In this document: one piece after another, positions 4,887-25,765 of the stretch
How positions within the stretch are numbered: the stretch's first letter is position 1
Layout of the letters: every line of letters starts with the position of its first letter
Assembly (NCBI RefSeq): GCF_900176595.1
Contig: NZ_LT838813.1
Location: forward strand, 1,894,501 to 1,958,500
DNA: 64,000 bases
Direction: 5' to 3'
From: Aquiflexum balticum DSM 16537
GTDB lineage: Bacteria; Bacteroidota; Bacteroidia; Cytophagales; Cyclobacteriaceae
Notes under the pieces: model-generated
Databases searched by the model: none
What the model was told of the DNA's origin: nothing
The model's input: the letters and a program-made list of their open reading frames with translations, nothing else
Made by a program: the position numbers and the translations under genes

Positions 4887-4895
4887 AAAAATAAA

Positions 4896-6812
4896 TTAAA
4901 TCTTTTCCAATAAATACATCATTCTCAATAATTCCCCTACGCTCCAAGCTTGAGAAACGGATCCTTTGGGCCTATGTGGAGGGTCTCCATCATAAATCTC
5001 AGCAACCGTACCTATACCATATTGTGTCATCACACCATCAAAACCCTGAATTATTTTTTCTACAAAGTGCTTTCCGGATTTGCCGTGAAGCCTTAGATAT
5101 CCTTCCACAAAATGCCCGAGGAGCCAAGCCCAAACGGTACCATTATGGTATGCAATATCTCTTGTATATTGGTTACCGTGATAATACCCTTTATATCCGG
5201 GATCATCAGGAGAGAGGGATCTTAATCCCCTTGTAGTCAATAATTTTGATCTTACAATTTCCAATATACTGTCCATCTGACTCTCTTCCAATGGAGAATA
5301 TTTAAGAGAGGTAGCAAAGATCATATTTGGCCTGATAGACCAGTCCTTAAAAGTCCCTGAAACATAATCTGCCAAATATCCTCTTTTTTCATCCCAAAAT
5401 GTCTCGTTAAATGACTTTTTGACCAATTCTGAGAGCGTTTCCACTTCTTTGTCTCCAGAAAGTTCCACATAGAAACATAAAGCATTATACCATAATGCAT
5501 TTATTTCAACCGGGCAGCCAATCCTTGGTGTAACCGGTCCGTCAGTATTGACTGCGTCCATCCAGGTTAAAGCAACCCCGTCCATCCCTCCGTACATCAA
5601 GCCGTTTTCCAACATGTGAATATTGAAATCAGTGCCATGTCTAAACCCATCAATGATACCTTTCATTTTGTCCAGGTATTTCTTTTTAATGGTTTTGGTA
5701 TCTCCTGTGAATTCTATGAACTGTTGTAAAGACCAAAAAAACCATAAAGGCGCATCCATGGAGGTGGAATTTCTCATGACACCGCTTCCAACATTCGGGA
5801 ATAGTGGGCCACTCAGGTCCTCGACCATGGTATCAATGATTTCCAAAAATGTTTCTTTATTGCCTTGGGTCAACGTGAGTCCCGGAGAAGCTATAAATGT
5901 ATCCCTGCCCCACCATCCAAACCATGGATAGCCGGCAATTACGTGGGTTTTGCCATCCCTTTTTTGGATGAATTGTCCAGCTGAATTTTTGAGACAGTTT
6001 ACAAAATTATTTCTTGGGATTCTTCTGGCAAGTTCTTTTTCAAAGGCTTTTTGTCTTGTACTTGGGTCTGCTTCTATTAATCCTGCAGAGAAAATGACCG
6101 ATTCACCTTTTGCAATATCAAATTCAAAATATCCTGGAACAAACAAATCTTCTTGGTATTCATAACCCCTTTCCCTTTCCATGATATATTCAATATTGTA
6201 ATACCAGTCGGGTTTGGAAACGTATTCATTCTTTTTAGAAAGCTGCAGGTATAGGGGTGTGTATTCCGGGTATAATTGGAATTTTACTCCATTGGGAACC
6301 TTTTTGAATTCTTTATTTATTCTCTCGTTTTCTTTTGAAAGGTTATGATATCCTCTAAAACCCAAAAAAGGGCTTATCCTGATTTTGGTAGGAGAATGGG
6401 CTTCCAATAGGGTATAGCGAATCATTACCCTGTCCCTATTGGTGTCAAGAATCAGTTCTTTCTGAAGCAAAACACCCCCAACTCTATAAGTAAGCTTAGG
6501 AATAGGTTCCGAATCAAAATCTTCCAAATATTTATGGCCTCTTGGAGAATAATTACCCGGGAATTTGCTGATTCCTAAATTGAAACTTGCGCCTCTTTGA
6601 ATTACAGTCTCATGGACAGTGGATAACATCACATGCAGCTGTTCATCAATTTGAGGTTGTGGGGCCACCAAAAGTCCGTGATATTTTCTTGTATTACATC
6701 CAATAATGGTCGTGCTTGTGTAACATCCACCTCGATTGGTTCTGATTATTTCCCTGTCAAGGGAGTAATTAAGGTTTACTAATTGGGTTTTGTCAAAATG
6801 AATATAACTCAT
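4896..6812 (-). CDS. Glycogen debranching enzyme (amylo-alpha-1,6-glucosidase, GH133-like)
   Basis: A 638-aa protein of the bacterial GDE family. The N-terminal domain (about 1-250) contains the family's NRGGCYTSTTIIGCNTRKYHGLLV. The C-terminal catalytic (alpha/alpha)6 barrel shows GYPWFGWWGRDTFIASPGLT, MYGGMDGVALTWMDAV and YTRDIAYHNGTVWAWLLGHFVEGYLR. It hydrolyses alpha-1,6 branch points of glycogen-like polymer. First gene of the glucan operon, with the GT4 gene starting 9 bases downstream. A terminator for a small upstream ORF lies about 70 bases before its start, so it has its own promoter in that gap. Confidence 0.9.
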   Translation of the reverse strand: MSYIHFDKTQLVNLNYSLDREIIRTNRGGCYTSTTIIGCNTRKYHGLLVAPQPQIDEQLHVMLSTVHETVIQRGASFNLGISKFPGNYSPRGHKYLEDFDSEPIPKLTYRVGGVLLQKELILDTNRDRVMIRYTLLEAHSPTKIRISPFLGFRGYHNLSKENERINKEFKKVPNGVKFQLYPEYTPLYLQLSKKNEYVSKPDWYYNIEYIMERERGYEYQEDLFVPGYFEFDIAKGESVIFSAGLIEADPSTRQKAFEKELARRIPRNNFVNCLKNSAGQFIQKRDGKTHVIAGYPWFGWWGRDTFIASPGLTLTQGNKETFLEIIDTMVEDLSGPLFPNVGSGVMRNSTSMDAPLWFFWSLQQFIEFTGDTKTIKKKYLDKMKGIIDGFRHGTDFNIHMLENGLMYGGMDGVALTWMDAVNTDGPVTPRIGCPVEINALWYNALCFYVELSGDKEVETLSELVKKSFNETFWDEKRGYLADYVSGTFKDWSIRPNMIFATSLKYSPLEESQMDSILEIVRSKLLTTRGLRSLSPDDPGYKGYYHGNQYTRDIAYHNGTVWAWLLGHFVEGYLRLHGKSGKHFVEKIIQGFDGVMTQYGIGTVAEIYDGDPPHRPKGSVSQAWSVGELLRMMYLLEKI

Positions 6813-11871: not shown

Positions 11872-12285
11872 ATGTCGAATATTATTGACAGAATTGGAGA
11901 ATTTGCCCATCGCCAAAAATTGAGCATCAGGAAGATTGAAAATAAAATCGGGGCAAGTAATGGAACAATTTCCAAAGCCATTGGTAAGGATAAAGACATT
12001 CAAACCAAGTGGATTGCCCTATTTGTTGAACAATTCCCTGAAGTAAATCCAGTATGGCTCCTAACTGGAATCGGATCAATGTTATTGTATAAGGAAGAGA
12101 AAGATAACATAGAATCCAAGCTTGCATCCGATCCTCAAGGTGAATATGAAACGAGGGCTTCAAAGCAAAACCAGGAAATTATCGCTTCCCTCAAACAAGT
12201 CATTGCGGCCTTGGAAGGACAACTCAAAGAAAAAGAGCGGATTATAGAACTAAAAGATAGAATTATCAGGGAGTTGGAGAAATAG
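11872..12285 (+). CDS. Phage-repressor-like HTH protein with C-terminal coiled coil
   Basis: A 137-aa protein. Residues 1-70 form an XRE-type helix-turn-helix domain (RIGEFAHRQKLSIRKIENKIGASNGTISKAI, then WIALFVEQFPEVNPVWLLTGIGSML), a pattern seen in many Bacteroidota prophage and island regulators. Residues ~95-137 are a continuous charged coiled coil (SLKQVIAALEGQLKEKERIIELKDRIIRELE), probably a dimerisation stalk; there is no LexA-type peptidase domain. It lies 34 bases upstream of hsdR and probably controls the restriction operon and/or the divergent 89-aa gene. Confidence 0.8.
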   Translation: MSNIIDRIGEFAHRQKLSIRKIENKIGASNGTISKAIGKDKDIQTKWIALFVEQFPEVNPVWLLTGIGSMLLYKEEKDNIESKLASDPQGEYETRASKQNQEIIASLKQVIAALEGQLKEKERIIELKDRIIRELEK

Positions 12286-12319
12286 AATAACTTAAATGAT
12301 CAATTGCTAAAAAATATTG

Positions 12320-15300
12320 ATGGACCACTCTAATTTTTCATATCTGGAAACTGAATTTCCCATTCTTTTCAATATCGGTCTAGCGGCGGAGTTCAACTTG
12401 CATCAGGATCCCATTACCTGCATGTTCAAATTGCGTCAGTTCGGGGAAAGGGTCAGTGAATTGCTTTTTGAGCTGCACCACTTGGATTTTCCTTATGATA
12501 ACTCCTTTCACAACCGACTGAAAATCCTGGAATTCGAAAATGTACTTCCCAATCAGGTAAAAGACCTGCTTCATGCCATTAAGCAAAAGGGAAACGTTGC
12601 CGTACACCAAAACAAAGGTTCTTTGGAAGATGCCAAAGGACTGCTTTTTTCTACTTTCAAAATTGCCAAGTGGTTTTATCAGACTTACTCGGAGGAAAAC
12701 GATGACCTGAGTACAGTCAAATTCCACCTTCCCGGGAAGCTTGATGCCAGGCATGCCCTTTATGAACTTGAAAAGGAATACGCAAATCTGCAGGAGAAAT
12801 TTGATGCGCTCTTAGATGAAAGAAGTACTGCCAAACTCCCAGAAGAAAAGCTGATAGAAATACAGGACCGTTCCCAAAAAGCCGCCAGAAAGATAGAAAT
12901 GTCCGAAGCGGAAACACGCTTGCTGATTGACGAACAATTGAGAACTGCGGGCTGGGAGGTAGATACACAAACCATTAATTTCCGAAAGCATCGAATCCAA
13001 CCCAAGAGAGGAATGAATTTGGCCATTGCCGAATGGCCATGTGGAAGTAAATGGGCTGATTATGCGCTATTTGTCGGTACGCAACTCTATGGGATTGTAG
13101 AAGCAAAGAAATATGCTTCCGATATTTCGACAGACCTATCTCAGTCAAAAGTATATGCAGCATGTATCGAAGTCGGGCATGAAGCCGAACTTTTGGGAGA
13201 GTGGCAGGGATATAAAGTTCCATTCCTTTTCTCTACCAATGGCCGGGCTTATCTTGAACAGATCAAAACCAAAAGTGGGGTTTGGTTTTTGGATGTCAGG
13301 ATAAAGCACAACAGCTCGAAAGCTTTACAAGGATGGTACAGCCCCGAAGGGTTGATCAAACTTCTGGAAAAAGATCTCAAAGCCTCTGAGGACAAACTGA
13401 AATCAGAACCGGTAGATTTTTTGGAAAGCAATTCAGGATTGGGTCTGAGAAAATACCAAATAGAGGCTATCCAAGAATTAGAAAAGGTATTGCTCAACAA
13501 CCCTGACCGCTCAAGAGCGCTGGTGACCATGGCTACCGGAACAGGAAAAACACGAACCATCATCGGACTTTGCTACCGTTTGATCCAATCCAATAGATTC
13601 AAAAGAATTCTTTTTCTTGTCGATCGAACGCTTTTGGCTACACAAGCTATCAATTCCTTTAAAGACAATAAAATCATCGGGCTCAATACTTTTTCGGAAA
13701 TTTATGGCATCAAGGAGTTACAGGATAAAGTTCCTGAACTGGATACAAGACTGCATTTTGCTACTGTGCAGGGAATGGTCAAACGGCTGTTTTATAGCCA
13801 AGATCTAGATGTTCCTCCGGTAGATCAGTACGATTGCATCATCATTGATGAAGCGCACAGGGGCTATTTGATAGACAGGGAAATGGATGATGAGGAATTG
13901 AACTTCAAGGACCAACGGGATTATGTGAGCAAATACCGCATGGTACTGGATTACTTTGATGCTTATGCCATTGGGCTAACGGCTACCCCGGCCCTGCACA
14001 CTACCGAGATTTTTGGGACTGCTGTTTATACCTATTCCTACAGGGAAGCGGTCATTGATGGATATTTGATCGACCATGAACCGCCTTATATTATCAAGAC
14101 CAAGTTGTCCGAAGAGGGGATTACTTGGGAAAAAGGTGCCCAACCGAAGGCACTTGACAGGGAAAGTAATACCATCATCGAACTGGAAAAGCTCGAAGAC
14201 GAGTTGAAGATTGACATAGCAGGATTTAATAAACAAGTAATAACCCCCAGTTTCAACAGGACAGTGATCCAACAACTGGTCAAGGAACTGGATCCGGATG
14301 GAGAAGAAAAATCCCTGTTCTTTGCTGCCACAGACGAACATGCTGATATGGTAGTGGCTTATCTGAAAGAGGAATTTGCCGCAATCGGAGTGGATGTTGC
14401 GGACAATGCCATTCAGAAAATCACGGGCAAATCCTACAATCCCAAAGACCAATTCCTGCGCTTCAAAAATGAAAAACATCCCAATATAGCCGTTACCGTG
14501 GATTTGCTGACCACGGGGATTGATGTTCCTGCTATCTGTAACCTGGTCTTTATGCGTCGGGTCAAATCCAGGATTTTGTATGAACAGATGCTCGGAAGGG
14601 CCACCCGTAGATGTGATGAAATCGGGAAGGAAGTATTTAGGATTTATGATGCGGTAAAGATTTACGAGACCTTGGAAGACTTTACCCAAATGAAACCTGT
14701 GGTGGCCAATCCCAAAGTGAGCTTTCGGCAATTGGTGGAAGAATTCAAAGATATAGATCAGGGAGAACGTGCCAAAAGGCAGGTGGAGCAGTTGGTTGCC
14801 AAGCTACAGCGGAAAAAGAAATACCTGGAAGGCGATCAGGAAGATAAATTTATCTACAATGCCAAAGGTGCCAAGCCAGATGAATTTCTGGAACAATTGA
14901 AAAATCTGGATACCCCGGCTGCAGTATCCCAAATCTTACAGCTTTCGGGACTTTGGAAATTCCTCGATGAACTCAGGCCTGAGGTGGCTTTGCCTTTGAT
15001 GTCTGACCATGAAGACAAATACCTGGGAACTGAAAGGGGCTATGGCAAGGCCGAAAAGCCTGAAGACTATCTGGATAATTTTACCCAATTTATACAGGAA
15101 AACCAAAATAAGATCGAAGCCCTCAAAATCGTCTGTAGTCGACCTACCGAACTGGACCGCAAGTCCTTGCGGGAATTGATGCTGGCATTGGATCAGGAAG
15201 GCTACAATGCCCATACTCTCAATGCTGCATGGAAAGCATACAAAAATGAAGATATTGCAGCAGATATCATTTCCTATATCCGAACCCTTTCTTTGGGGAG

Positions 15301-15553
15301 TTCTCTGGTAAGTCATGAAGAAAAGGTGAGGAAAGCAGTTGAAAGTATCCGTCAGATGAAAGACTGGAACAAAACCCAACTGAAGTGGATAGACCGTTTT
15401 GAGAAACAGTTGCTCAAAGAAACTGTGCTCAGGAAGGAAGACCTGGATCAGGATCCATTTGATGAGGCAGGAGGTTTTGACAGGCTGAACAGGATTTTTG
15501 AGGAGCAGTTGGAAGAAGTGATTGCCGAAATGAACAGAAATTTATACGCTTAA
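12320..15553 (+). CDS. hsdR: Type I restriction enzyme, R subunit
   Basis: A 1,077-aa translocase/nuclease. The ATG at 12320 is chosen over the TTG just before it. Residues ~1-150 form a DUF4145-like helical domain; the nuclease domain has the PD-ExK-type core with YGIVEAKK near residue 260. A superfamily 2 helicase follows, with Walker A TMATGTGKT (~405), DEAH box IIIDEAHRGY (~510), GLTATPALHT, and LGRATRRCDEIGKE. The C-terminal region resembles the EcoEI R C-terminal domain. It cleaves unmodified DNA after translocation with HsdM and HsdS. hsdM starts 9 bases downstream, giving one operon hsdR-hsdM-hsdS. Confidence 0.95.
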   Translation: MDHSNFSYLETEFPILFNIGLAAEFNLHQDPITCMFKLRQFGERVSELLFELHHLDFPYDNSFHNRLKILEFENVLPNQVKDLLHAIKQKGNVAVHQNKGSLEDAKGLLFSTFKIAKWFYQTYSEENDDLSTVKFHLPGKLDARHALYELEKEYANLQEKFDALLDERSTAKLPEEKLIEIQDRSQKAARKIEMSEAETRLLIDEQLRTAGWEVDTQTINFRKHRIQPKRGMNLAIAEWPCGSKWADYALFVGTQLYGIVEAKKYASDISTDLSQSKVYAACIEVGHEAELLGEWQGYKVPFLFSTNGRAYLEQIKTKSGVWFLDVRIKHNSSKALQGWYSPEGLIKLLEKDLKASEDKLKSEPVDFLESNSGLGLRKYQIEAIQELEKVLLNNPDRSRALVTMATGTGKTRTIIGLCYRLIQSNRFKRILFLVDRTLLATQAINSFKDNKIIGLNTFSEIYGIKELQDKVPELDTRLHFATVQGMVKRLFYSQDLDVPPVDQYDCIIIDEAHRGYLIDREMDDEELNFKDQRDYVSKYRMVLDYFDAYAIGLTATPALHTTEIFGTAVYTYSYREAVIDGYLIDHEPPYIIKTKLSEEGITWEKGAQPKALDRESNTIIELEKLEDELKIDIAGFNKQVITPSFNRTVIQQLVKELDPDGEEKSLFFAATDEHADMVVAYLKEEFAAIGVDVADNAIQKITGKSYNPKDQFLRFKNEKHPNIAVTVDLLTTGIDVPAICNLVFMRRVKSRILYEQMLGRATRRCDEIGKEVFRIYDAVKIYETLEDFTQMKPVVANPKVSFRQLVEEFKDIDQGERAKRQVEQLVAKLQRKKKYLEGDQEDKFIYNAKGAKPDEFLEQLKNLDTPAAVSQILQLSGLWKFLDELRPEVALPLMSDHEDKYLGTERGYGKAEKPEDYLDNFTQFIQENQNKIEALKIVCSRPTELDRKSLRELMLALDQEGYNAHTLNAAWKAYKNEDIAADIISYIRTLSLGSSLVSHEEKVRKAVESIRQMKDWNKTQLKWIDRFEKQLLKETVLRKEDLDQDPFDEAGGFDRLNRIFEEQLEEVIAEMNRNLYA

Positions 15554-15562
15554 TTATATAGC

Positions 15563-17026
15563 ATGAGTGCAGAACAGATTGCAAAGAAATTGTGGGAACT
15601 GTGTAATGTTCTCCGTGACGATGGGGTGACCTATCACCAATATTTGAATGAACTGACATTTATTCTTTTTTTGAGGTTGTCTGAGGTGAAGAAGTTTGAT
15701 CAGGATATTCCTGAGAAATACCGCTGGAGCAACCTGAAGGGAATTAAAGACAACAAAGAGCTTTTTGATACTTACCGGGACCTGCTTGCGAACCTTGGTA
15801 CGATGTCCACCAATGAGACCATTACAGAAATCTACACCAATGCCTCTACTACCCTGAGGAAACCTGTCAACCTGCGTACCTTGATCACCAATATCGATCA
15901 GATCGATTGGTTTGAGGATGAAGAGCAGGATAAAATCGCCAGCATCTATGAAGAACTATTGGAAAAGAATGCCGGGGAGAAAAAGAGTGGGGCAGGGCAG
16001 TATTTTACCCCAAGACCACTGATCAATGTGATGGTGGAACTGCTTTCACCCAAAATCGGAGAAAGGTGGAGTGACCCGGCAGCGGGAACTTTTGGTTTTA
16101 TGATCGCTGCGGATGAATACCTGAAGCGCAAGTTTGACGATTACTATTCCCTGAGTCAGGAAGAAAGAAGTTTTCAGATCAATAAAGCTTTTTCAGGATG
16201 CGAACTCGTACAGGATGCACACAGACTGGCATTGATGAATGCCAAGCTGCATGCCTTGGAAAGCAGGATTGTGATGGGAGATACCCTGACTGAACTGGGA
16301 AAGAGTTTCAAAAACTATGACGGTGTTTTGGCCAATCCGCCATTTGGAACCAAGCAGGGAGGAGAGCGGCCTACCCGTGATGACTTTACCATCAAGACCT
16401 CCAACAAGCAGCTGAATTTCCTGATGCATATTTACCGCTCCCTGAGAAGGGATACCGGTACTGCGAGGGCTGCGGTGGTGCTACCTGATAACGTGCTTTT
16501 TGAGGACAATGACGGACAGAAAATCCGTCGGGATTTGATGGATAAATGCGACCTGCATACCGTGCTGCGATTACCGACAGGGATTTTCTATGCGGCAGGA
16601 GTTAAAACCAATGTACTGTTCTTTACCCGAGGGAAAAAGGAAACAGGCAATACCAAGCGGGTATGGTTTTATGATATGCGGACCAATGCACCGAGTTATG
16701 GGAAGCGGACTCCCTTTGCCCGTGAGGCTTTTGCGGATTTTGTAAAAGCTTATACGGGAGGCTTGGGCTTAGAGGAAGTGAAGGAAAGCTACGATGGAAT
16801 GGTGGATGATGCCAAGCGTCAAGGCATCCAAGATCCCCGATGGCAAATATTCACTCGGGTGCAGATTGCTGCCAAGAACGATTCATTGGATATCGGTCTG
16901 ATCGAAGATGAGAACATCAGCAAAAATGCCGACTTGGGCGATCCTTTGGATATTGCAAGGTTGGCATCTAAGGAGTTGGATGGCATTAAAAAAGAGTTGG
17001 ACCAGATTATTGCTTTGTTGGGATAA
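15563..17026 (+). CDS. hsdM: Type I DNA methyltransferase, M subunit
   Basis: A 487-aa N6-adenine methyltransferase. The N-terminal helical domain (about 1-125) is followed by the catalytic domain with SAM motif I SDPAAGTFGF (~170) and catalytic motif IV LANPPFG (~257). GAGQYFTPRPLI, typical of HsdM, precedes motif I. It methylates the HsdS-specified target to protect host DNA. Spacing is 9 bases from hsdR and 3 from hsdS, so it is tightly cotranscribed. Length is close to the family norm (~490-530 aa); all key residues are intact. Confidence 0.95.
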   Translation: MSAEQIAKKLWELCNVLRDDGVTYHQYLNELTFILFLRLSEVKKFDQDIPEKYRWSNLKGIKDNKELFDTYRDLLANLGTMSTNETITEIYTNASTTLRKPVNLRTLITNIDQIDWFEDEEQDKIASIYEELLEKNAGEKKSGAGQYFTPRPLINVMVELLSPKIGERWSDPAAGTFGFMIAADEYLKRKFDDYYSLSQEERSFQINKAFSGCELVQDAHRLALMNAKLHALESRIVMGDTLTELGKSFKNYDGVLANPPFGTKQGGERPTRDDFTIKTSNKQLNFLMHIYRSLRRDTGTARAAVVLPDNVLFEDNDGQKIRRDLMDKCDLHTVLRLPTGIFYAAGVKTNVLFFTRGKKETGNTKRVWFYDMRTNAPSYGKRTPFAREAFADFVKAYTGGLGLEEVKESYDGMVDDAKRQGIQDPRWQIFTRVQIAAKNDSLDIGLIEDENISKNADLGDPLDIARLASKELDGIKKELDQIIALLG

Positions 17027-17029
17027 ACT

Positions 17030-18334
17030 ATGGCAAATAAAGGTGACATAAGAAAGGAAGAAATTCAACCCAATTTCCCTAAAAGGTGGGATATAATCCC
17101 ATTTAAGAATGGCTTAATGAAATCTGGAAAGTTTACAAAACTTAAATCTTCCCAATATCTAGAAACTGGTATTTATCCTATTATTGATCAAGGAGAGAAA
17201 TTCATTTCAGGTTATATTGATGATAAGAATTTAATTTATGACGGTATACTTCCAATTGTGATTTTTGGTGATCATACGCGAAACATAAAATTCATAGATT
17301 TTCCTTTTGCAGCAGGCGCTGATGGAACAAAAATTCTTGCGCCAGTAGAAGACATCAATCCACACTTTTTCTACTATTATCTTAAGACATTAAAAATACC
17401 TTCTTTTGGTTATAGTAGGCACTATAAGGTATTCGATTTTTTAGACTTGCCAATTCCTCCCCTTCCCGAGCAGCAGCGCATAGTAGCCAAATTAGATGCT
17501 TTGTTTAGGCATTTGGATAGTTTGCGGGAGAAGCTGGATCTGATTCCTGAGTTGCTGAAAAACTTCCGTCAGCAGGTTTTGACCCAGGCGGTGACGGGGG
17601 AGTTGACGAAGGAGTGGAGAGAGGGGAAGGGATTGGGGGAGTGGGAATACATAGGTTTACAAGAAGTTGCTGATGTCGTTGATCCCCACCCAAGCCATAG
17701 AACTCCTCCTTCAGTATTGGACGGTGTTCCATACATAAGTATAAAAGATGTTGACTCCAAAGGCAGAATTGATTTTAAAAACTCAAATCTTGTTTCGCCA
17801 AAAGTGCTGGAAGAGCACATTAAAAGATATGAATTAAAAGATGGAGATTTAGGATTTGGTAAAATTGGAACTCTGGGAAAACCCTTTCGATTACCAATTT
17901 TTAATGAAAGAAACTATACGTTATCAGCAAACATTATTTTGATTCAACCTAAGTCAAATTGTAATCCCAAATTCTTGTTTTATTATTTAGATAGTCCTAT
18001 AATAAACAAACTTCTAAAGGAGGGAGCAAAGGCTACTTCACAACCTGCGTTTGGAATCAAAAAGGCCAGAGTTTTTCCAACTCCAAGTCCATCACAGGAA
18101 GAACAAAAAGAAATCGTGACTCAGATAGATGCCCTTTTCTCCCTAGCCGACAAAATCGAATCCCGGTATGGTTCCTTAAAAGTCAAGATTGATCAAATGC
18201 CTCAGGCGATATTGGCGAAGGCTTTTCGGGGGGAGCTGGTGGAGCGGGAGGTGAAGGAGTATGTGGTGGAGGAAGGAGAGGGGTTGATGGCGGCGGAGGA
18301 ACAGTTGCGTTATCGGTTGAAAACAAAAACATAA
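17030..18334 (+). CDS. hsdS: Type I restriction specificity subunit
   Basis: A 434-aa protein with the two-repeat architecture of HsdS: target-recognition domain 1 (about 1-145), conserved spacer helix (LPEQQRIVAKLDALFRHLDS..., ~147-200), target-recognition domain 2 (~205-350), and a second conserved helix (SQEEQKEIVTQIDALFSLAD..., ~358-430). The two domains bind the two halves of a split DNA target. They look more AT-rich than the conserved helices, as expected when recognition domains are exchanged between strains. It starts 3 bases after hsdM. No adjacent recombinase or second hsdS is present, so no sign of phase-variable inversion. Confidence 0.93.
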   Translation: MANKGDIRKEEIQPNFPKRWDIIPFKNGLMKSGKFTKLKSSQYLETGIYPIIDQGEKFISGYIDDKNLIYDGILPIVIFGDHTRNIKFIDFPFAAGADGTKILAPVEDINPHFFYYYLKTLKIPSFGYSRHYKVFDFLDLPIPPLPEQQRIVAKLDALFRHLDSLREKLDLIPELLKNFRQQVLTQAVTGELTKEWREGKGLGEWEYIGLQEVADVVDPHPSHRTPPSVLDGVPYISIKDVDSKGRIDFKNSNLVSPKVLEEHIKRYELKDGDLGFGKIGTLGKPFRLPIFNERNYTLSANIILIQPKSNCNPKFLFYYLDSPIINKLLKEGAKATSQPAFGIKKARVFPTPSPSQEEQKEIVTQIDALFSLADKIESRYGSLKVKIDQMPQAILAKAFRGELVEREVKEYVVEEGEGLMAAEEQLRYRLKTKT

Positions 18335-18351
18335 ACCTACAGGTTGATAAT

Positions 18352-18906
18352 ATGAAAATTGTCAGTATCTTTGAATTCTCTAAGGAAAGCCTCTTTGCCG
18401 TGAAGTATGAAGGAGAGGACTTAGATTCGCTTGAGATACTACAAGAGCAATGGTCAGATGTAGCGTTTCTTAGGGAGTTCTTCAAGAAGTATAAGAAAGA
18501 TTATGAGAGCTACTATCCTAAAGCCAAACTTAGCAAAATCGTACTGCAGACAATCGAAGACGCAGATGCCTTATTCGAATTGCTTTATAAGATGGCAGAG
18601 GATAGGACTGGAAAATCCCTAGCTGATTACTTTAAGCCTCTGGAAAACAGAGAGAAAGAGAAAATTTATCCACTACAAGCATTAAAAGCCTATGGCCCCC
18701 AAAGCAATTCATTTTTACGCATATATGCCATCCGGTACGGTTCCTCTTTCGTTATTACTGGAGGAGCCATCAAACTAACCCACCAAATGGCTGATAGGCC
18801 TCACACCAAATTGGAGTTACATAAATTGGAATGGGTTAAAAAATATCTCCAAGAAGATGGTGAAACTCCTGAATTTGTTTACCTAGACCTTGACAACGAT
18901 GAATAA
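18352..18906 (+). CDS. Probable HigB/RelE-like toxin of a toxin-antitoxin-chaperone operon
   Basis: A 184-aa protein. The core FLRIYAIRYGSSFVITGGAIKLT (residues 121-143) followed by the basic helix HTKLELHKLEWVKKYL resembles the beta-sheet and final helix of RelE/HigB-type mRNA interferases, where an Arg/Lys-bearing strand and helix contact ribosomal RNA or mRNA. It is larger than canonical HigB (~90-125 aa) because of a helical N-terminal region. It overlaps the downstream HTH gene by 8 bases, and a SecB-like gene follows, the gene order of the Mycobacterium tuberculosis HigB1-HigA1-Rv1957 TAC system. It starts 17 bases after hsdS. The toxin role is inferred from fold-like similarity and context. 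Confidence 0.7.
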   Translation: MKIVSIFEFSKESLFAVKYEGEDLDSLEILQEQWSDVAFLREFFKKYKKDYESYYPKAKLSKIVLQTIEDADALFELLYKMAEDRTGKSLADYFKPLENREKEKIYPLQALKAYGPQSNSFLRIYAIRYGSSFVITGGAIKLTHQMADRPHTKLELHKLEWVKKYLQEDGETPEFVYLDLDNDE

Positions 18907-19381
18907 GACCGAAGAAAAAATCAAAGCACTAGCTTCCGAAACCCCTGCTTCTAGTTGGAGGGAAAAAGTAGAATTTCGGAAAGCCAACAAAGCAACTCTT
19001 AGACAAGCTGCTAAAGTTGCTTTAAGGCTTTTGGATGCATTAGAAGACAAGGGATGGAGTCAAGCACAGCTTGCCAGAGAACTGGAAGTCACGCCTCAGC
19101 AGGTCAGCAAATGGATCAAGGGTCAAGGTGACTTTAAGTTTTCGACCATAGATAAGCTTGAAAAGGTTCTGGGAATAAAAATCCATGCTGTTCTGACCGA
19201 GGATGAGTTTGTTACTACAGAGGAAGCTTTTGAAGCAAGTCTAAAAGAAGAAATGATCGCCTATCATCAGCGCTGGACTAATACCCAAGAATACTTCAAA
19301 TTAAAAAATCAAATCACCAATCCTCAAATAGTAATGGCAGTAAGTCATGCTGATCAGGATGTAATTGCCATGGCAGGATGA
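18899..19381 (+). CDS. Probable HTH antitoxin (HigA-like) with C-terminal extension
   Basis: 160 aa from the ATG at 18899, preferred to a TTG at 18890; the ATG overlaps the toxin's stop. An N-terminal helical segment (1-45) is followed by a clear XRE helix-turn-helix (WSQAQLARELEVTPQQVSKWIKG, ~53-75). After residue ~100 there is a 60-residue tail (TEDEF...VIAMAG) outside the DNA-binding domain. In TAC systems the antitoxin's C-terminal extension is the chaperone-addiction region recognised by the SecB-like partner, so this tail is the natural candidate. It probably represses its own operon. The next gene's ATG overlaps its stop by 4 bases. Confidence 0.78.
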   Translation: MNKTEEKIKALASETPASSWREKVEFRKANKATLRQAAKVALRLLDALEDKGWSQAQLARELEVTPQQVSKWIKGQGDFKFSTIDKLEKVLGIKIHAVLTEDEFVTTEEAFEASLKEEMIAYHQRWTNTQEYFKLKNQITNPQIVMAVSHADQDVIAMAG

Positions 19382-19830
19382 AAGCGAAATTTTCCCCATT
19401 ACAATTGTTGGATTTCAAGTTATTGGAATCGCATGTTGAGTTTGTTGTTCCAGAAGAAGTAGAACTTGATGTCAAGGAGTTGTTTCAATCCTATTCAGTG
19501 GATATTGATTTTGGTCTTCGAAACAATGAAGACGAACAGGAGATCCAGTTATTCACAATAATTCAAGTCAATTCTGGAGAAGATGATACATTATCTGGGT
19601 ACAAAATCATGGTAGAAGGCGGAGGTACCTTCCGTATTCAAAATCCGGAAGAACTCGAAGAGAATCTTAAAAACAACTTGACCCAGTTTTCTACGCTGAA
19701 CATGATGATCAACAATCTCCGAAACATCATCTACCAAATCACCAACTTGGGCCCTATGGGTGGGTATCTGTTACCACCGATTGATATTACTCAGTTGTTG
19801 AGGGATAAGGCTGGGAGTAAAATTGATTAA
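19378..19830 (+). CDS. SecB-like chaperone of the TAC operon
   Basis: A 150-aa acidic protein. The ending (NLRNIIYQITNLGPMGGYLLPPIDITQLL) has the SecB family's final helices and the GxxPP(I/V)(D/N)(I/F)xxL-type tail; the middle is predicted beta-rich with repeated Ile/Val strands (EIQLFTIIQVN, GYKIMVEGGGTFRI), as in SecB. SecB-like proteins linked to toxin-antitoxin pairs hold the antitoxin folded and protect it from proteolysis. Here it is translationally coupled (ATGA overlap) to the HTH antitoxin. Bacteroidota usually lack housekeeping SecB of the E. coli type, so a dedicated role with this operon is likely. Confidence 0.78.
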   Translation: MKAKFSPLQLLDFKLLESHVEFVVPEEVELDVKELFQSYSVDIDFGLRNNEDEQEIQLFTIIQVNSGEDDTLSGYKIMVEGGGTFRIQNPEELEENLKNNLTQFSTLNMMINNLRNIIYQITNLGPMGGYLLPPIDITQLLRDKAGSKID

Positions 19831-19860: not shown

Positions 19861-20031
19861 ATGGGCAAAAAGAGAAGGGCAGATCAGGAATGGATAGAAT
19901 ATAGACAATCCGTTCTTGAACAAAAGTCAAAGAGTGATGATGATTTTGAAAAGTATATTACTTATATTTCTTCTGGAGCATTGATAATTACATTGACTTT
20001 TGTGGAAAAAATCAGCCCTTTGGAGCAATAA
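19861..20031 (+). pseudogene. Truncated small membrane protein
   Basis: A 56-codon ORF (MGKKRRADQEW..., then YITYISSGALIITLTFVEKI) that stops just after what looks like the first membrane segment. Proteins starting with a short polar region and an ISSGALxxxxxFVEKI-type first span are usually over 100 aa with two spans in Bacteroidota (from memory). The sequence after the stop does not continue the protein in any frame I checked, so I read it as a 5' gene fragment left by recombination. Confidence 0.4.
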
Positions 20032-20435: not shown

Positions 20436-21020
20436 TTATTTTTTAAAGTTAAATCCAAGGTCCAATTCAGAAAACTTGCTCAAAAGTTCAGGTAGGTCAA
20501 GTACCGAGATTTCTAAAGTTTGACAGATCGCAGGGATTTTTTTGAATAGCTTAAGATCATTTTCTGAATTGCTTTCCTCTGTTACAATAAAAACATCTTC
20601 ATCAGGAAAATCCTTCATCATGTACTGACAATGCATGATCATTTTTGCATCGGCTGATTCCAAAAACCTAGACTTTTGAACTTCGAACTCTGCATCGGTT
20701 AATCGTTTCAACTGACCAGGAATCGCGAATTGGTTTTTCAACATATTCAAAAACCTTTGTGGAGCTAGGGGAATTAGCTCATCTGTCTTTACAGGTACTT
20801 GAAAAGTCTTCTGAAACTCTTTGTCAATCAAATAGGTGAGATTATTGACCACAATCTTTTTAGAAACAAATCTACATTCTTGCAAAACCGCATCTAGTAT
20901 TACTATTTCCCCTATTTCAATTTTTTTCCTGATTAGATTAAAAAGTATGCCATGATTGTCAAAAGGCAGGTAATACCGAACCAAACTCAAAAGGGAACTG
21001 GTATCGATTATTGCCTTCAT
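20436..21020 (-). CDS. PIN-like (DUF4411-type) protein paired with an ImmA/IrrE peptidase
   Basis: A 194-aa protein. MKAIIDTSSLLSLVRYY supplies the first PIN-fold Asp (D6). Later blocks LDAVLQEC (Glu), ESADAKMIMHC (Asp) and VFIVTEES followed by KIPAICQTLEISVLDLPELL resemble the acidic core and the C-terminal xxIPxxCxxLxI pattern of DUF4411 PIN-like nucleases. Such genes usually follow an ImmA/IrrE-family gene, as here: its ATG overlaps that gene's stop by 4 bases. Predicted to be a ribonuclease toxin-like effector. Confidence 0.75.
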   Translation of the reverse strand: MKAIIDTSSLLSLVRYYLPFDNHGILFNLIRKKIEIGEIVILDAVLQECRFVSKKIVVNNLTYLIDKEFQKTFQVPVKTDELIPLAPQRFLNMLKNQFAIPGQLKRLTDAEFEVQKSRFLESADAKMIMHCQYMMKDFPDEDVFIVTEESNSENDLKLFKKIPAICQTLEISVLDLPELLSKFSELDLGFNFKK

Positions 21021-22225
21021 CTAAGGTATTTTTCAAGTTGGTTTGGCTTGAGGTTTAGTGTTTTGCACAACTCATACTCATTAATTACCCCATCAAAAAA
21101 CGCAGACTGTATGGTGGAAACAAATAATGGGGATTTAATGGGTTTAGCCAAACTTGCGATGGAGGCTTTACCCATTTCCTTTTCCAGTTCCCGCTTCTTT
21201 TTGTCTTCTTCTTTTCTCTTCCGGAGTTCTTCCTCCTGATCGCTTCTCATTTTGGCATAAATGGCTCCACTGACTTTACCTTTTTTAACCAGATAAGTCA
21301 GGATGGCTGTAAAGCACAAATGGGTTTGATCCGAAATGGTTTTGATTTCATTAAAATTGTAATCGTTTCGCAGAGTAACATTGGGCAATTTATCCAAAAC
21401 AGGAAGCTGAGGGCCTGCTAAAAAGGCAAAAGCAAAATTATTACACCATGCCTCTACCTTATTAATTTTCCCAAAAGCCATTTGATCGTAATCCATGGAT
21501 TCTATCTCTTCTTGATTCAGAAGATAATGACCAAGTTCGTGTGCAAGGGTAAAAATTTCTCTTTTGAAATAATCCTGATTTCTCCTCAATACAATGACAT
21601 TAGGCTGTAAAAAGAATCCGTCAATATTGGTTTTTTCCTTTAAAGAGGGATGCTCTACATATTCAAAGACCAAAATATTGTACTCAGCAAATTTATCAAT
21701 TAAGGCATTGAGAAATTTCTTTGGGTCTTTTTTGGAGCGGGGCATCAATTGTTCACGTATCTTATTTGCTACCAAAGCTGGATTATCCTGATTGCTTAAA
21801 ACAGGGAGTTTTCTTTCTAAATTGATATCAGAGAGCTTAGCTAATCCAGAAAGAGAAATCTTGAGCTCTTCAAACTGATTCACAATTTTCTTTGCGGCGA
21901 GATTTAGATTTGTTCCGAATTTTTCTTTTCGAAAAAAAATACTTGACTCCTTACTCGTTATCGGTGGAGTTGGATCTAGGTAATAAGAGAGCCCTTTCCT
22001 GAAAATCTTATCTATCCGCTTAAGATGATTGATCTGTATTTCTTCCTTGAAAACAGCTTCCCAAGTCAACGAATGTTTTAATCCCTCACTTATTAAAGTC
22101 AAAAACTCTTCCTTGCCCAACTGGTATTGTTGGATCAGGTGATTTATTCTTTCAATATTGTAGGTTGTTGTCTTCAAGAGTAGAAAAATAATATGACTTG
22201 TATTCTGAAACGTAAAATAATACAA
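21017..22225 (-). CDS. ImmA/IrrE (M78) metallopeptidase-like protein
   Basis: 402 aa from the ATG at 22225; a TTG at residue 17 (LKTTTYNIERINHL) is an alternative, since the first 16 residues look like translated leader. The N-terminal ~70 residues are helical and HTH-like. The peptidase core has the zinc motif LAHELGHYLLNQEE followed by VEAWCNNFAFAFL, the usual ImmA/IrrE pattern. After residue ~340 a very charged helix (EEELRKRKEEDKKKRELEKE) leads to a small C-terminal domain. ImmA-like peptidases cleave repressors or act as antitoxin-like partners. It is coupled to the downstream PIN gene and divergent from a second ImmA-PIN pair. Confidence 0.8.
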   Translation of the reverse strand: MYYFTFQNTSHIIFLLLKTTTYNIERINHLIQQYQLGKEEFLTLISEGLKHSLTWEAVFKEEIQINHLKRIDKIFRKGLSYYLDPTPPITSKESSIFFRKEKFGTNLNLAAKKIVNQFEELKISLSGLAKLSDINLERKLPVLSNQDNPALVANKIREQLMPRSKKDPKKFLNALIDKFAEYNILVFEYVEHPSLKEKTNIDGFFLQPNVIVLRRNQDYFKREIFTLAHELGHYLLNQEEIESMDYDQMAFGKINKVEAWCNNFAFAFLAGPQLPVLDKLPNVTLRNDYNFNEIKTISDQTHLCFTAILTYLVKKGKVSGAIYAKMRSDQEEELRKRKEEDKKKRELEKEMGKASIASLAKPIKSPLFVSTIQSAFFDGVINEYELCKTLNLKPNQLEKYLR

Positions 22226-22359: not shown

Positions 22360-23415
22360 ATGAAATACCTCGCCTCCCGTCTCAAATCAGCCCGTTTGAT
22401 GAATGGCTTATCTTTGCAAGGTCTGGCAGACCGGATAGAGAATCGTATAACCAAACAAGCACTCAGCAAGTATGAGCAGGGGCAGGTAATTCCTGACTCA
22501 GAAATGATCGGTCTATTGGCAGAAGCCCTGCATGTCAGGCCGGACTATTTTCATGCCGATACTGTCATAGAATTTGGGGAAATAGAGTTTAAGAAACTGG
22601 ATTCCTACCCAGTCAAAGAGAAAAATAGGATTGTAGAAATAGCCAAAAATGAACTGAGCCGCTACATCGAGTTAGAGGAAATATTGGGCATAGAAACCAA
22701 GTTCCACAACCCGCTTGATGGAATGGCAATTAATTCTCTAGAGGATATTGAAAAAGCTACTGAAACCTTAAGATATGCTTGGGGCCTGGGAATCGATGCC
22801 ATTTCCAATGTGATCGAGCTTTTGGAAGATCATCATGTCAAAGTGATAGAAATTGATTCTGAGGAGTCATTTGATGGTTTTGCAACTTGGGTGAATGGAA
22901 AAGATATTCCCTTAATCGTACTCAATAAAGCCAAGTTTGAGCATAAGCTTGACCGGAAGCGCTTCACTGCCTTACATGAACTAGGACACTTGCTTCTTGA
23001 TGTCAATGGATACAAAGAAAAGCAAAAGGAAAAGTTCTGCCATGCTTTTGCAGCTGCGATGTTGATCCCCGAGGATACCTTAAGAGAAGAACTGGGAGGA
23101 AAAAGAAGCAAATTGTCCATGAATGAGTTGGGAGCCATCAAGCAGCAATATGGTATTTCTATGCAGGCATTAGTTTATCGGGCTAAAAAACTCGGGCTGA
23201 TCTCTGAAAATTACCTCAAGCAATTCTACATAGTTTTCAATCAGCTGGGATTTCGGGTAACTGAACCGGTGGATTATGAAGGAATGGAGCATTCTAATCG
23301 TTTTTCTCAGCTTTTGTTCAGGGCTTTAGCGGAGGAGTATATCAGCATCAGTAAGGCAGCCGCTTTGAAAAATCAGAAATTGGCTGAGTTTAGGAAGGAA
23401 AATATGGTCATCTGA
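22360..23415 (+). CDS. XRE HTH - ImmA/IrrE metallopeptidase fusion protein
   Basis: A 351-aa protein. Residues 1-65 form an XRE helix-turn-helix (LASRLKSARLMNGLSLQGLADRI... ALSKYEQGQVIPDSEMI). The M78 domain follows with FTALHELGHLLLDVNG around residue 207 and FCHAFAAAMLIPEDTL, the conserved pattern of ImmA/IrrE; the C-terminal third has another helical domain. Proteins of this layout repress their own operon and serve as antitoxin for the PIN-type toxin encoded next. Its TGA overlaps the ATG of the PIN gene by one base. Confidence 0.85.
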   Translation: MKYLASRLKSARLMNGLSLQGLADRIENRITKQALSKYEQGQVIPDSEMIGLLAEALHVRPDYFHADTVIEFGEIEFKKLDSYPVKEKNRIVEIAKNELSRYIELEEILGIETKFHNPLDGMAINSLEDIEKATETLRYAWGLGIDAISNVIELLEDHHVKVIEIDSEESFDGFATWVNGKDIPLIVLNKAKFEHKLDRKRFTALHELGHLLLDVNGYKEKQKEKFCHAFAAAMLIPEDTLREELGGKRSKLSMNELGAIKQQYGISMQALVYRAKKLGLISENYLKQFYIVFNQLGFRVTEPVDYEGMEHSNRFSQLLFRALAEEYISISKAAALKNQKLAEFRKENMVI

Positions 23416-23714
23416 TGAGGATTGCTGTCACAGATGCCGGTATTTTTATAGATCTGATTGATTTGGATTTGATATCTGACTTTTTTCAATTGGACTTGGA
23501 GCTTCATACAACAGTTGAGGTTATGAATGAATTATTCCAAGAGCAAAAACAGGTGTTGGCAGCATACCAAGATGGGAGAAAGCTTATCGTACGTAACCTT
23601 GATGACCAGGATTTTTCAAAAATGGAAAAAATTGCCTTCCCCAGAGGTCTATCTCCCGAGGATAGATCCGTCATTTACATCGCCTTGGAATTGGGAAATG
23701 CTATTGTGTTGAGC

Positions 23715-23791
23715 AGTGATAAACTTGTAAGAAAATGTGCAGAAAGTCATGCTTTAGAATATCATGGACTTTTGTGGATATTTGACTTATT
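23715..23791 (+). repeat. 77-bp target-site duplication, left copy
   Basis: Identical in every base I compared to 25440-25516. The two copies directly abut the inverted repeats of the insertion sequence, and the sequence around them reads continuously in the PIN gene. Confidence 0.9.
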
Positions 23792-23804
23792 CCTGACTTC
23801 CGCA
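23792..23804. repeat. Terminal inverted repeat of the insertion sequence, left
   Basis: CCTGACTTCCGCA, the exact reverse complement of 25427-25439. Confidence 0.85.
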
Positions 23805-23818
23805 CTGGGACACCCTGA

Positions 23819-24586
23819 TTAAAATCCGAATATTTCTTGTACTGATTTCTGTTCTTCGGTAAGGATTATTGTTTTCTTGATGACTTCCTTGTTTGGGGTG
23901 ACCAAACCTATTTCATGGATGTTCTGTATGATCTCGATTACATTTTCGGGGCTTAATCCGGCCTTTTTGGATTTGAGTATCCTGTCAAGTTCTTTGTACA
24001 CTTTGTATGCCGTAAAATTCAGGCATATATGGGCCTCTATTCTTTCCCTTTTATGGTGGAAAACAGGCCTTATTTTCAATTCGTTTTTTGCAACCCGGAA
24101 TGCTTTCTCTATCTGCCAAAGGTGGCGGTAGTTTTCCAGAACTTCCTCTTTGGTCATAGTTGAGTTGGTCAAGTATCCCTTGAGCCCATCCCATTTTGCG
24201 TCCATATCCACTTTTTCCTGGTCAAGTGCCAACGCCACTTCACCTTCCATTCTAAGAAATTTGTTGTAGCCTTTGTTATTGATACTCGACTTGGTAAGTT
24301 TCCCCGATTTCAACTGCATTTCTAGCCTTTTGACACCTCTTTCCCTATTGTACCGATCCTTTTTTGCCCGGTCTTGCGAATAGGTAACGACCAAGGTCAT
24401 ACCTTCTTTCTTAATTGCCCTGCTCTGGTCTTTTTCGAAGTCAAGCCCCAGGATTTCTTTTTTGACAGATTCTTTTTCATTTTTTAATCCTTGCTCCCAA
24501 AATAAACTCGTAGCCTTTTTCGACAAGTTCCTGCACATTTTTGTTTGAAAGAAGGCCTGCATCTGCAACAACTGTGAGCTTTTCAA
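23819..24586 (-). CDS. IS1634-type transposase, C-terminal frame
   Basis: This frame holds the second half of a DDE transposase of the IS4/IS1634 superfamily: LVVTYSQDRAKKDRYNRERGVKRL, then NYRHLWQIEKAFRVAKNELKIRPVFHHKRERIEAHICLNFTAY, with the catalytic Glu in the Y-(2)-R-(3)-E(-6)-K-like block IEKAFRVAKNEL. It continues the N-terminal frame after the A6 run at 24480-24485. From that point about 220 residues follow, so the fused protein would be near 500 aa, the usual range for the family. The part upstream of 24486 is out-of-frame overlap and is probably not translated. Confidence 0.8.
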   Translation of the reverse strand: MKSSQLLQMQAFFQTKMCRNLSKKATSLFWEQGLKNEKESVKKEILGLDFEKDQSRAIKKEGMTLVVTYSQDRAKKDRYNRERGVKRLEMQLKSGKLTKSSINNKGYNKFLRMEGEVALALDQEKVDMDAKWDGLKGYLTNSTMTKEEVLENYRHLWQIEKAFRVAKNELKIRPVFHHKRERIEAHICLNFTAYKVYKELDRILKSKKAGLSPENVIEIIQNIHEIGLVTPNKEVIKKTIILTEEQKSVQEIFGF

Positions 24587-25325
24587 AATTGTATTTCATG
24601 CGGAAGCCCTCCAGAATGGGAAGGAATGTATCCCCCTCGTATTTGTTTCCCTCAAAAATATCATAAGCCAATGGATATGCGTCTTTGCTCACCAGCAAAC
24701 CCAGTACAATCTGGGGATGTTTGTGCTTCCCGTCTTTTGAAAACCCGGGCTTTCTGATATCATCCTCTTTTTCTATTTCAAAGTAGATGGTTGTAACATC
24801 ATAAAAAACCGCGTGGATGCCACCGTCCAAAACTTGCAGGGTATGTTCAAAGCTGATCTTTTGGACCAGATCCTTATACCTGGAATGCAGCCTATCCATA
24901 AAGCGGTAAATGTCGTCTTCGGAGTAAGACTTCTGTTCGTAACGGTAAAGATATTCTGTTGTTTTAAGCTTGCTTTTAGGGTAAACCAGACGGTATAACA
25001 CAAGATCTTTGAAAAGCTCCTCATTGATCTGAGTAAAACCAATATCATCAAATATCTTCCCCAAAACATACTGTATGCCCACAAGCTTATGCGAACTGAT
25101 TGAAGACAGCACATCAGTAAATATCCTCCTGTGATCGGTAAAGTCGATCTCCTGAAGCCCCATTTGTTTTTGAGCATAACTTTTACCTTCGGCAACCAGA
25201 CGCTCAATTTCTAAGGTATCTTTACTTGAGCCAATGGTCTTTAGAACCTTATATTTCCCTTGGCTTTTATCTATTACCTGTACACTGACAAGTCCACTTT
25301 TATTTGGCTTTTTGCGAACAAACAT
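24477..25325 (-). CDS. IS1634-type transposase, N-terminal frame
   Basis: 282 aa from ATG to a TGA at 24477-24479. It shows the N-terminal part of an IS1634 transposase (FVRKKPNKSGLVSVQVID... ), the first catalytic Asp in FYDVTTIYFEIE, and the second in LTVVADAGLLSNKN. The stop comes directly after six A residues (AAAAAATGA on the coding strand); a -1 shift there joins the protein to the C-terminal frame. This could be programmed slippage or an inactivating indel. A functional transposase needs both halves. Confidence 0.8.
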   Translation of the reverse strand: MFVRKKPNKSGLVSVQVIDKSQGKYKVLKTIGSSKDTLEIERLVAEGKSYAQKQMGLQEIDFTDHRRIFTDVLSSISSHKLVGIQYVLGKIFDDIGFTQINEELFKDLVLYRLVYPKSKLKTTEYLYRYEQKSYSEDDIYRFMDRLHSRYKDLVQKISFEHTLQVLDGGIHAVFYDVTTIYFEIEKEDDIRKPGFSKDGKHKHPQIVLGLLVSKDAYPLAYDIFEGNKYEGDTFLPILEGFRMKYNFEKLTVVADAGLLSNKNVQELVEKGYEFILGARIKK

Positions 25326-25426
25326 GGACTAATTTAATAAAATCATGCTCTGGGACACCCAAAACCAAAATATAAAAATTCTTAAACATTGAAAATCAAT
25401 AACTTAAAAAATTACCGTGAATTACC

Positions 25427-25439
25427 TGCGGAAGTCAGG
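25427..25439. repeat. Terminal inverted repeat of the insertion sequence, right
   Basis: TGCGGAAGTCAGG, pairing with the left terminal repeat at 23792-23804. Confidence 0.85.
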
Positions 25440-25516
25440 AGTGATAAACTTGTAAGAAAATGTGCAGAAAGTCATGCTTTAGAATATCATGGACTTTTGT
25501 GGATATTTGACTTATT
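25440..25516 (+). repeat. 77-bp target-site duplication, right copy
   Basis: Matches 23715-23791 and continues directly into the remaining 3' part of the PIN gene. Confidence 0.9.
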
Positions 25517-25765
25517 GGTTGATAATGGTGTTTGTTCTAAAGCCAGAGCACTTTCTACGATTAAAAAGCTTTTTACTATGAATACCATGTATGCGGGTGC
25601 AAAGACTAGAAAGGAGATAGAAAACCAGATTAAGAAATGGGGTTAAAATTGGTTAATCCCATTTACTCCCCTAGATTTCCATCCCTAAATTGAATAAGTT
25701 TACCATCATTATTTCTCAGCAAAGCTTTTAAATATTATTACCACTTTTAACCCAAGTTAAATCAA

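Follow-up and report, generated by a model that had tools for sequence, protein, structure and literature searches.

Why should a type I restriction operon in Aquiflexum balticum DSM 16537 end in what appears to be a toxin-antitoxin-chaperone (TAC) operon, and are the two tied in function? The question arises from a 64,000-nucleotide stretch of this genome (the window; the genome itself, G000, is called the sample's own genome below). As the original prediction stated, three overlapping genes follow directly behind hsdR, hsdM and hsdS, on the same plus strand. They encode a predicted toxin of 184 residues (T, 18352..18906), a predicted antitoxin of 160 residues with an XRE-type helix-turn-helix (HTH) head and a C-terminal tail (A, 18899..19381), and a SecB-like chaperone of 150 residues (C, 19378..19830). 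The overlap is 8 bases between T and A and 4 bases between A and C, and 17 bases separate the end of hsdS (18334) from the start of T (18352). For A, the ATG at 18899 is a more likely start than the listed TTG at 18890. We consider it probable, from sequence comparison, that the locus is a chaperone-addicted TAC with its own operator-like site, lying at the 3' end of the type I operon and acting as a second-line abortive defence. Comparison of genomes supports the architecture, the constraint on the genes, the coupling of tail and chaperone, the conserved site and the recurrent restriction-modification (RM) neighbourhood; toxicity, RNase activity, operator binding, chaperone dependence and a phage trigger are properties that we infer.

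All three genes are under purifying selection. The ratio of nonsynonymous to synonymous substitution rates (dN/dS) was 0.08–0.12 for T, 0.12–0.28 for A and 0.07–0.19 for C in pairs among the window and two related loci, L001 and L003, with a third, L002, added for A and C (L numbers denote loci and G numbers genomes throughout). Because these values stay within 0.07–0.28 between close relatives, T, A and C are not chance open reading frames (ORFs).

The tail of A is one of the features that point to a TAC. Pfam HTH_3 matches A at 8.6e-13 over residues 46–95, which leaves a tail of about 65 residues, slightly more than the 60 predicted at first. A also matches two models of the PADLOC phage defence candidate PDC-M64, PDC-M64C (2.7e-15) and PDC-M64B (1.5e-13). 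The last 65 residues (19184..19378) look like a chaperone-addiction (ChAD) region, since tail length follows the presence of C. Across 36 of 37 antitoxins (one truncated at the edge of a contig was omitted), the median tail was 63 residues with C (n = 18) versus 37 without (n = 18; one-sided p = 2.3e-5, kinship not corrected), and tails of 45 residues or more occurred in 17 of 18 antitoxins with C and 6 of 18 without. A pruned set of 26 of the 36 gave medians of 60 (n = 14) and 36 (n = 12; p = 1.4e-4) after five antitoxins without the motif and five near-duplicate or broken ones were dropped, four of the latter five being chaperone-free with tails of 44–65 residues. Several observations weigh against a simple rule. 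L055 has C and yet a tail of 23 residues, and with the six long chaperone-free tails this means that tail length alone separates the groups incompletely. Genomes of family f18 dominate the chaperone-free set, and the absence of C in L044 is unsure because only about 300 bases of contig remain beyond A.

The strongest evidence for a tie between tail and chaperone is L109, found in a genome of the same family at a matching site, where the gene pair downstream is the same and some 120 bases of the hsdS 3' end remain upstream. Window and L109 share 112 of 149 residues in C and 35 of 57 in the tail of A, compared with only 13 of 83 in the head of A; the toxins are identical at 39 of 126 positions, with a global score of only 6. 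This is an apparent natural swap, in which the same tail and chaperone would have been placed on a different toxin and HTH head. The tail and C thus also occur with another toxin, and both the TAC identity and the candidate addiction region that had been proposed for this DNA are supported by the comparison.

The same relatives suggest how the arrangement may have arisen. Window C has a mean identity of 21% to 12 other C proteins, which share 38% among themselves, whereas the corresponding values for T do not differ (40% versus 39%) and the A heads are somewhat diverged (41% versus 50%). Beyond the close clade, the T most similar to that of the window (64% identical) is in L034, which has no C hit and a tail of 16 residues. 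Since L034 has a short tail and no C, and window C has diverged while T has not, the simplest history seems to be one in which the close clade acquired tail and chaperone together.

The assignment of C to SecB, also part of the original prediction, was upheld by profile–profile comparison. Pfam SecB matched window C at E = 0.0065, with 16.8 bits where its cut-off is 26, and its matches to 4 of 16 C members (best 0.0034) and 1 of 10 further C proteins were likewise below cut-off. When C alignments were compared by hhalign with an alignment of 10 SecB-family proteins, the probability was 71% for 16 C proteins (score 36.0, E = 3.8e-5), 89% for 23 (score 42.7, E = 2.3e-6) and 92% for the five closest (score 45.8, E = 5e-7). 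Column shuffles, 40 each, scored at most 15.6 for the 23-protein and 20.4 for the 5-protein alignment, and the highest score from unrelated families was 15.1. No signal was obtained when a single E. coli SecB served as the hhalign target, C matched no PADLOC model at E up to 1, and sequence searches of solved structures with T, C and their alignments returned no credible relative. We conclude from these profiles that C is a SecB relative; TAC chaperones that fall outside Pfam SecB are already known (PMC4257090).

The module appears to carry its own control element. A near-palindromic site, AAACCTACAGGTTGAT (18333..18348, plus strand), overlaps the hsdS stop codon and ends 3 bases before the T start codon. 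Each of the 24 upstream regions printed has the site, consensus AATMAACYTATARGTTGATT, immediately ahead of the T start codon; T identities in this set fall to 33%, and the site is most degenerate in L046. The 16-base pattern has 18 exact matches in 28 genomes, 16 of them before T or a T remnant by hand count, and the only exact match in the 6.0-Mb own genome is the one before T. Two points count against reading too much into these numbers: the pattern was made from these same sites, and with one mismatch allowed it is about as frequent as a reversed control in many genomes, so that only exact matches are informative. We regard the near-palindrome as a putative operator that A may bind. Control of the RM operon by A through the same site was also considered; it was dropped because the exact site occurs only once in the own genome, before T.

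Of 395 genomes sampled from the phylum, 28 contain T (29 matches), and a search for close relatives found it in 4 named genomes. It also occurs in 3 of 72,556 plasmid records, 1 of 50,697 phage records and 5 distinct viral contigs. Genome sampling was uneven, many assemblies are drafts and several counts were made by hand. At every one of 30 loci A adjoins T; three of them (L002, L004 and L058) have a broken or truncated T. C is less constant: 13 of the 28 genomes have a C-like gene directly 3' of A, as do L001, L002, L003, a viral contig (L077) and a Persicobacter plasmid (L187). The antitoxin of the Phocaeicola and Bacteroides plasmids, like that of the phage contigs L060 and L062, has about 101 residues, and C is not evident there. 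Homologues without their partners, which were named at the outset as an argument against the prediction, were therefore seen for C only, and the T-A pair is kept throughout. A search for C in viral contigs confirmed nothing.

Related genes were encountered in other settings. The chaperone-free T-A pair of L060 and L062, two related viral contigs, lies among genes resembling those for phage structural proteins, and phages seem to carry the pair as well. The own genome holds a second TAC-like operon (L113; G000:C1:672500-682500, 4787-6144, minus strand) that encodes a toxin of 171 residues, an antitoxin of 130 residues (HTH_3) and a SecB-like protein of 148 residues (C profile, 1.9e-10). In L112, a TAC lies behind an HsdR-like gene. 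A SecB-like gene similar to TAC chaperones occurs away from T in about 29 genomes of family f18, and the three of its neighbourhoods that were read (L110, L111 and L115) had no toxin or antitoxin gene beside it.

The association with restriction genes is real and recurrent, and it is more general than the type I attachment first claimed. In the window, the subunits assigned by Pfam are HsdR (12317..15553, 1078 residues from the listed TTG; EcoEI_R_C 3e-39, ResIII 1.4e-30, and NCBIfam NF008521 at 1373 bits), HsdM (15563..17026, 487 residues; N6_Mtase 4.1e-62) and HsdS (17030..18334, 434 residues; Methylase_S 8.4e-21), all on the plus strand. Neighbourhoods of T were read at 27 loci (26 and the window) of the 29 matches, the fragmentary ones in G157 and G177 being left out. 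An RM gene stands directly beside T-A-(C), on the same strand and within about 260 bases, at 11 of the 27 loci, 10 of them firm. The neighbours are of type I in the window, L037, L056 and L057; Eco57I-type methylases (type IIG) in L035 and L052; type III-like Res and/or Mod in L038, L043 and L045, where the Res-like piece of L038 has no Pfam match and the call rests on position and Mod; and McrC preceded by an AAA_5 gene (McrBC, type IV) in L055. The TaqI_C-domain fragment beside the pair in L047 is less sure. At five further loci (L041, L050, L051, L053 and L059) only a stub of 30–39 codons of Res or Mod abuts the pair. Outside the sample, L003, from Belliella kenyensis, has hsdRMS, and L001, L002, L004 and L109 keep a 3' stub of hsdS. 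The Persicobacter plasmid carries hsdM, hsdS and hsdR within about 4.3 kb; in the viral contig L063, a Res gene stands 17 bases upstream.

This proximity exceeds expectation. An N6 or N6/N4 methylase lies within 10 kb of T in at least 11 of the 28 genomes versus 2.2 expected, and none of 200,000 simulations reached 11. As a control, 0 of 30 Gp49/ParE matches lay within 10 kb of a methylase among the matches listed for G000, G033, G035 and G053 (by hand). Among loci with C, 9 of 13 have live RM neighbours; among those lacking C, 2 of 14 do (p = 0.006, kinship not corrected). Three observations pull the other way. No RM gene or stub was found at 11 of the 27 loci by ORF inspection and tblastn with 10 RM proteins, the Pfam scan there covering only part of the neighbours and some contigs ending nearby; contig ends also cut L044, L048 and L059, where neighbours may be missing; and the control genomes hold 11 methylase and two ParE matches beyond those listed. 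A weak helicase match lies 1.9 kb from the pair at L049, one of the RM-free loci, and was not counted.

How far, then, does the neighbourhood reflect function? A toxin-antitoxin pair might simply accumulate beside RM genes in defence islands, carried on the same moving elements with no functional tie. The RM type does differ between close T relatives (Eco57I-type in L035, type I in L037), and because it changes in this way within the T tree, RM partnerships must have arisen more than once. Neutral co-residence would also suit the T-A pairs on plasmids L188 and L189, with no RM gene annotated within 6 kb, the phage contigs L060 and L062, with none evident around the pair, and L046 (G090:C9), an RM-free locus whose TAC lies about 200 bases behind genes for DarT and a macrodomain (DarG-like) protein. 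However, mere proximity would not predict an operon-like placement in at least 10 of 27 loci with four RM types, nor the control result, in which none of the 30 Gp49/ParE matches listed for the four genomes lay within 10 kb of a methylase. We therefore hold co-residence without a functional tie to be a possible but rather unlikely account.

A second alternative concerns the toxin rather than its place. T members share the motif LRxYAIR...(F/Y)VITGGAIKLTxxMxxRxHTxxEL, and W34, K112, R123, T136–G138, I140, K141 and E155 are invariant in 24 T sequences; when viral members are added, R123 and T136–K141 are still invariant and W34 and K112 vary. A Pfam scan of the 24 members gave no credible match, the window T included, in which no RelE/HigB domain was recognised, and a search with one T-subset alignment as query confirmed nothing. 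Compared by hhalign with 15 Gp49/HigB proteins (20 extracted ORFs pruned by eye, five being plainly in wrong frames or incomplete), the T profile scored 30.5 (34% probability, E = 4e-4), and the part aligned is the T C-terminal region. The controls scored lower: at most 19.3 in 100 column shuffles, 11 for the reversed profile and at most 14 for ParE, A, C and SecB.

PADLOC offers a nearer relative. PDC-M64B matches 20 of 24 T proteins, with a best E-value of 1.4e-7 and 2.4e-4 for the window T (residues 69–168), these being E-values without PADLOC's own thresholds. The toxins of L113 and L112 match the same model at 8.6e-40 and 3e-46, and T aligns with them by hhalign at 42% and 86% probability, respectively. 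Because PDC-M64B matches T members and T aligns with these two toxins, we conclude from the profiles that T is probably a diverged relative of PDC-M64, an uncharacterised candidate defence toxin. Kinship with RelE/HigB, as first proposed, is remote, likely but not proven. That proposal is weakly supported by a Gp49/HigB score above all controls. The probability of 34% is weak, the comparison with ParE (15 proteins as extracted, without the by-eye pruning given to the Gp49 set) was negative, and the L112 toxin showed no similarity to Gp49 (score 11.6), all of which tell against it.

Could T belong to a class that is only superficially RelE-like and act on a target other than mRNA? About 90 N-terminal residues of T are unassigned, the family has no credible Pfam match and was negative in the comparison with ParE, and published TAC toxins include an ADP-ribosyltransferase (PMC11618068). 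Set against this, the C-terminal pattern of T aligns to Gp49/HigB above 100 shuffles and the reversed control, and R123 and T136–K141 are invariant even with viral members. A different target is, in our view, doubtful, about as much so as neutral co-residence.

The original prediction had also proposed a guard, in which something that keeps A stable disappears when hsdRMS is lost or blocked, and killing by T then ensures retention of the RM operon. The tight, operon-like placement 17 bases from hsdS would suit such a role, as would modules lying between Res and Mod (L043, L045 and L038) or between hsdS and hsdR (L056 and L057). T is also broken in two of the three close relatives with only an hsdS stub, by an in-frame stop in L002 and by truncation in L004, a pattern compatible with relaxed selection as well as with a toxin cost. 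A strict RM guard was nevertheless rejected as the main reading on comparative evidence and we consider it highly improbable, because intact modules persist with an RM stub or none: L001, with its hsdS stub and no hsdRMS, keeps T, A and C open (T dN/dS 0.12), T and A are full-length beside stubs in L041, L050, L051 and L053 and intact in L034, 11 of 27 loci have no RM gene that was found, and the module has its own operator-like site.

We thus return to a chaperone-addicted TAC that provides a second line of defence. T would probably be an mRNA interferase of the RelE/HigB superfamily (BECR fold) with an added N-terminal region. A would bind T and, alone or with T, repress the promoter at the palindrome before T. 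Its tail would serve as the chaperone-addiction sequence and leave A unstable unless held by C. During infection, freshly synthesised structural proteins of the phage are the most likely agents to divert C from A, as described for CmdTAC and HigBAC; TAC chaperones are described as sensing phage capsid or tail protein in PMC11618068 and PMC11980606. With C occupied, A would be degraded and T freed, translation would stop and the infection would abort. Beside a restriction operon, such a module could form a second layer against phages that escape cleavage.

A bolder reading is that these loci form a dedicated class of restriction-embedded TAC. A single toxin-antitoxin cassette bearing a conserved operator of its own would have settled repeatedly at gene borders inside type I, IIG, III and IV operons and captured the chaperone and tail sensor there, and restriction and TAC would be one two-stage system that converts restriction escape, as phage structural proteins accumulate, into abortive infection. 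We offer this tentatively, and on present comparisons it is less probable than not. The locus joins two defences usually studied apart. Should the second-line reading be right, part of the Bacteroidota would have restriction operons with a further stage built in, the toxin of which carries no annotation beyond hypothetical protein, as on plasmids L188 and L189. L109 and L034 are likely before and after states of a toxin-antitoxin module gaining a chaperone, so that close relatives can be used to test how chaperone addiction began. The site before T, which is conserved, and the T motif provide simple markers for finding more modules.

Several neighbouring genes deserve mention. A 137-residue protein (11872-12285), encoded on the strand of hsdR and 31 bases ahead of it, has an HTH-like start and a coiled-coil-like end by eye; a Pfam scan gave no credible match, and it is possibly a regulator of the RM operon. 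After C, a 56-residue ORF with a hydrophobic stretch (19861-20031) matched no credible family in library scans and could be a truncated gene. Two gene pairs (20436-22225 and 22360-23822) resemble, by eye only, PIN-like and ImmA/IrrE-like toxin-antitoxin pairs, and DNA like the first of them also lies 3' of the TAC in L001 and L109. Within 23415-25646, two overlapping minus-strand ORFs (23819-24586 and 24477-25325) make up a transposase-like gene (by eye), which is flanked by a PIN-like gene and a partial second copy of the PIN-like C-terminal segment (25389-25646), as if its insertion had duplicated part of that gene.

In the open-access PMC literature, among the papers listed and judged by title and the start of the abstract, we found no RM-embedded TAC, no report of PDC-M64, none in which toxin-antitoxin, hsdS, restriction-modification and SecB appear together, and no toxin-antitoxin guard of an RM operon. 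The closest PADLOC entry is PDC-M64, whose B model matches most T proteins and whose C and B models match A; the window T matches it only weakly, and C has no PADLOC counterpart. HigB/Gp49 (PF05973) has a similar C-terminal pattern in profile comparison, but Pfam does not recognise T, which is longer (184 residues versus 82–173, most 97–131, in the 15 Gp49 proteins compared). CmdTAC is also a three-gene TAC with a SecB-related chaperone and senses a phage capsid protein; its toxin CmdT is an mRNA ADP-ribosyltransferase, from which T is set apart by description only (both points from PMC11618068). The established TAC modules, HigB1-HigA1-Rv1957 of M. tuberculosis and HigBAC of E. coli, have the same order of toxin, antitoxin and SecB-like chaperone and share with the window a C-terminal extension of the antitoxin, and their tail and chaperone can be transferred together as a unit. 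A transfer of this kind was achieved by engineering in PMC5105189, and L109 would be an apparent natural version. The window module differs from the known ones in its 184-residue toxin from a family without Pfam assignment, in the recurrent position of its type within restriction operons and in this apparent natural swap of tail and chaperone.

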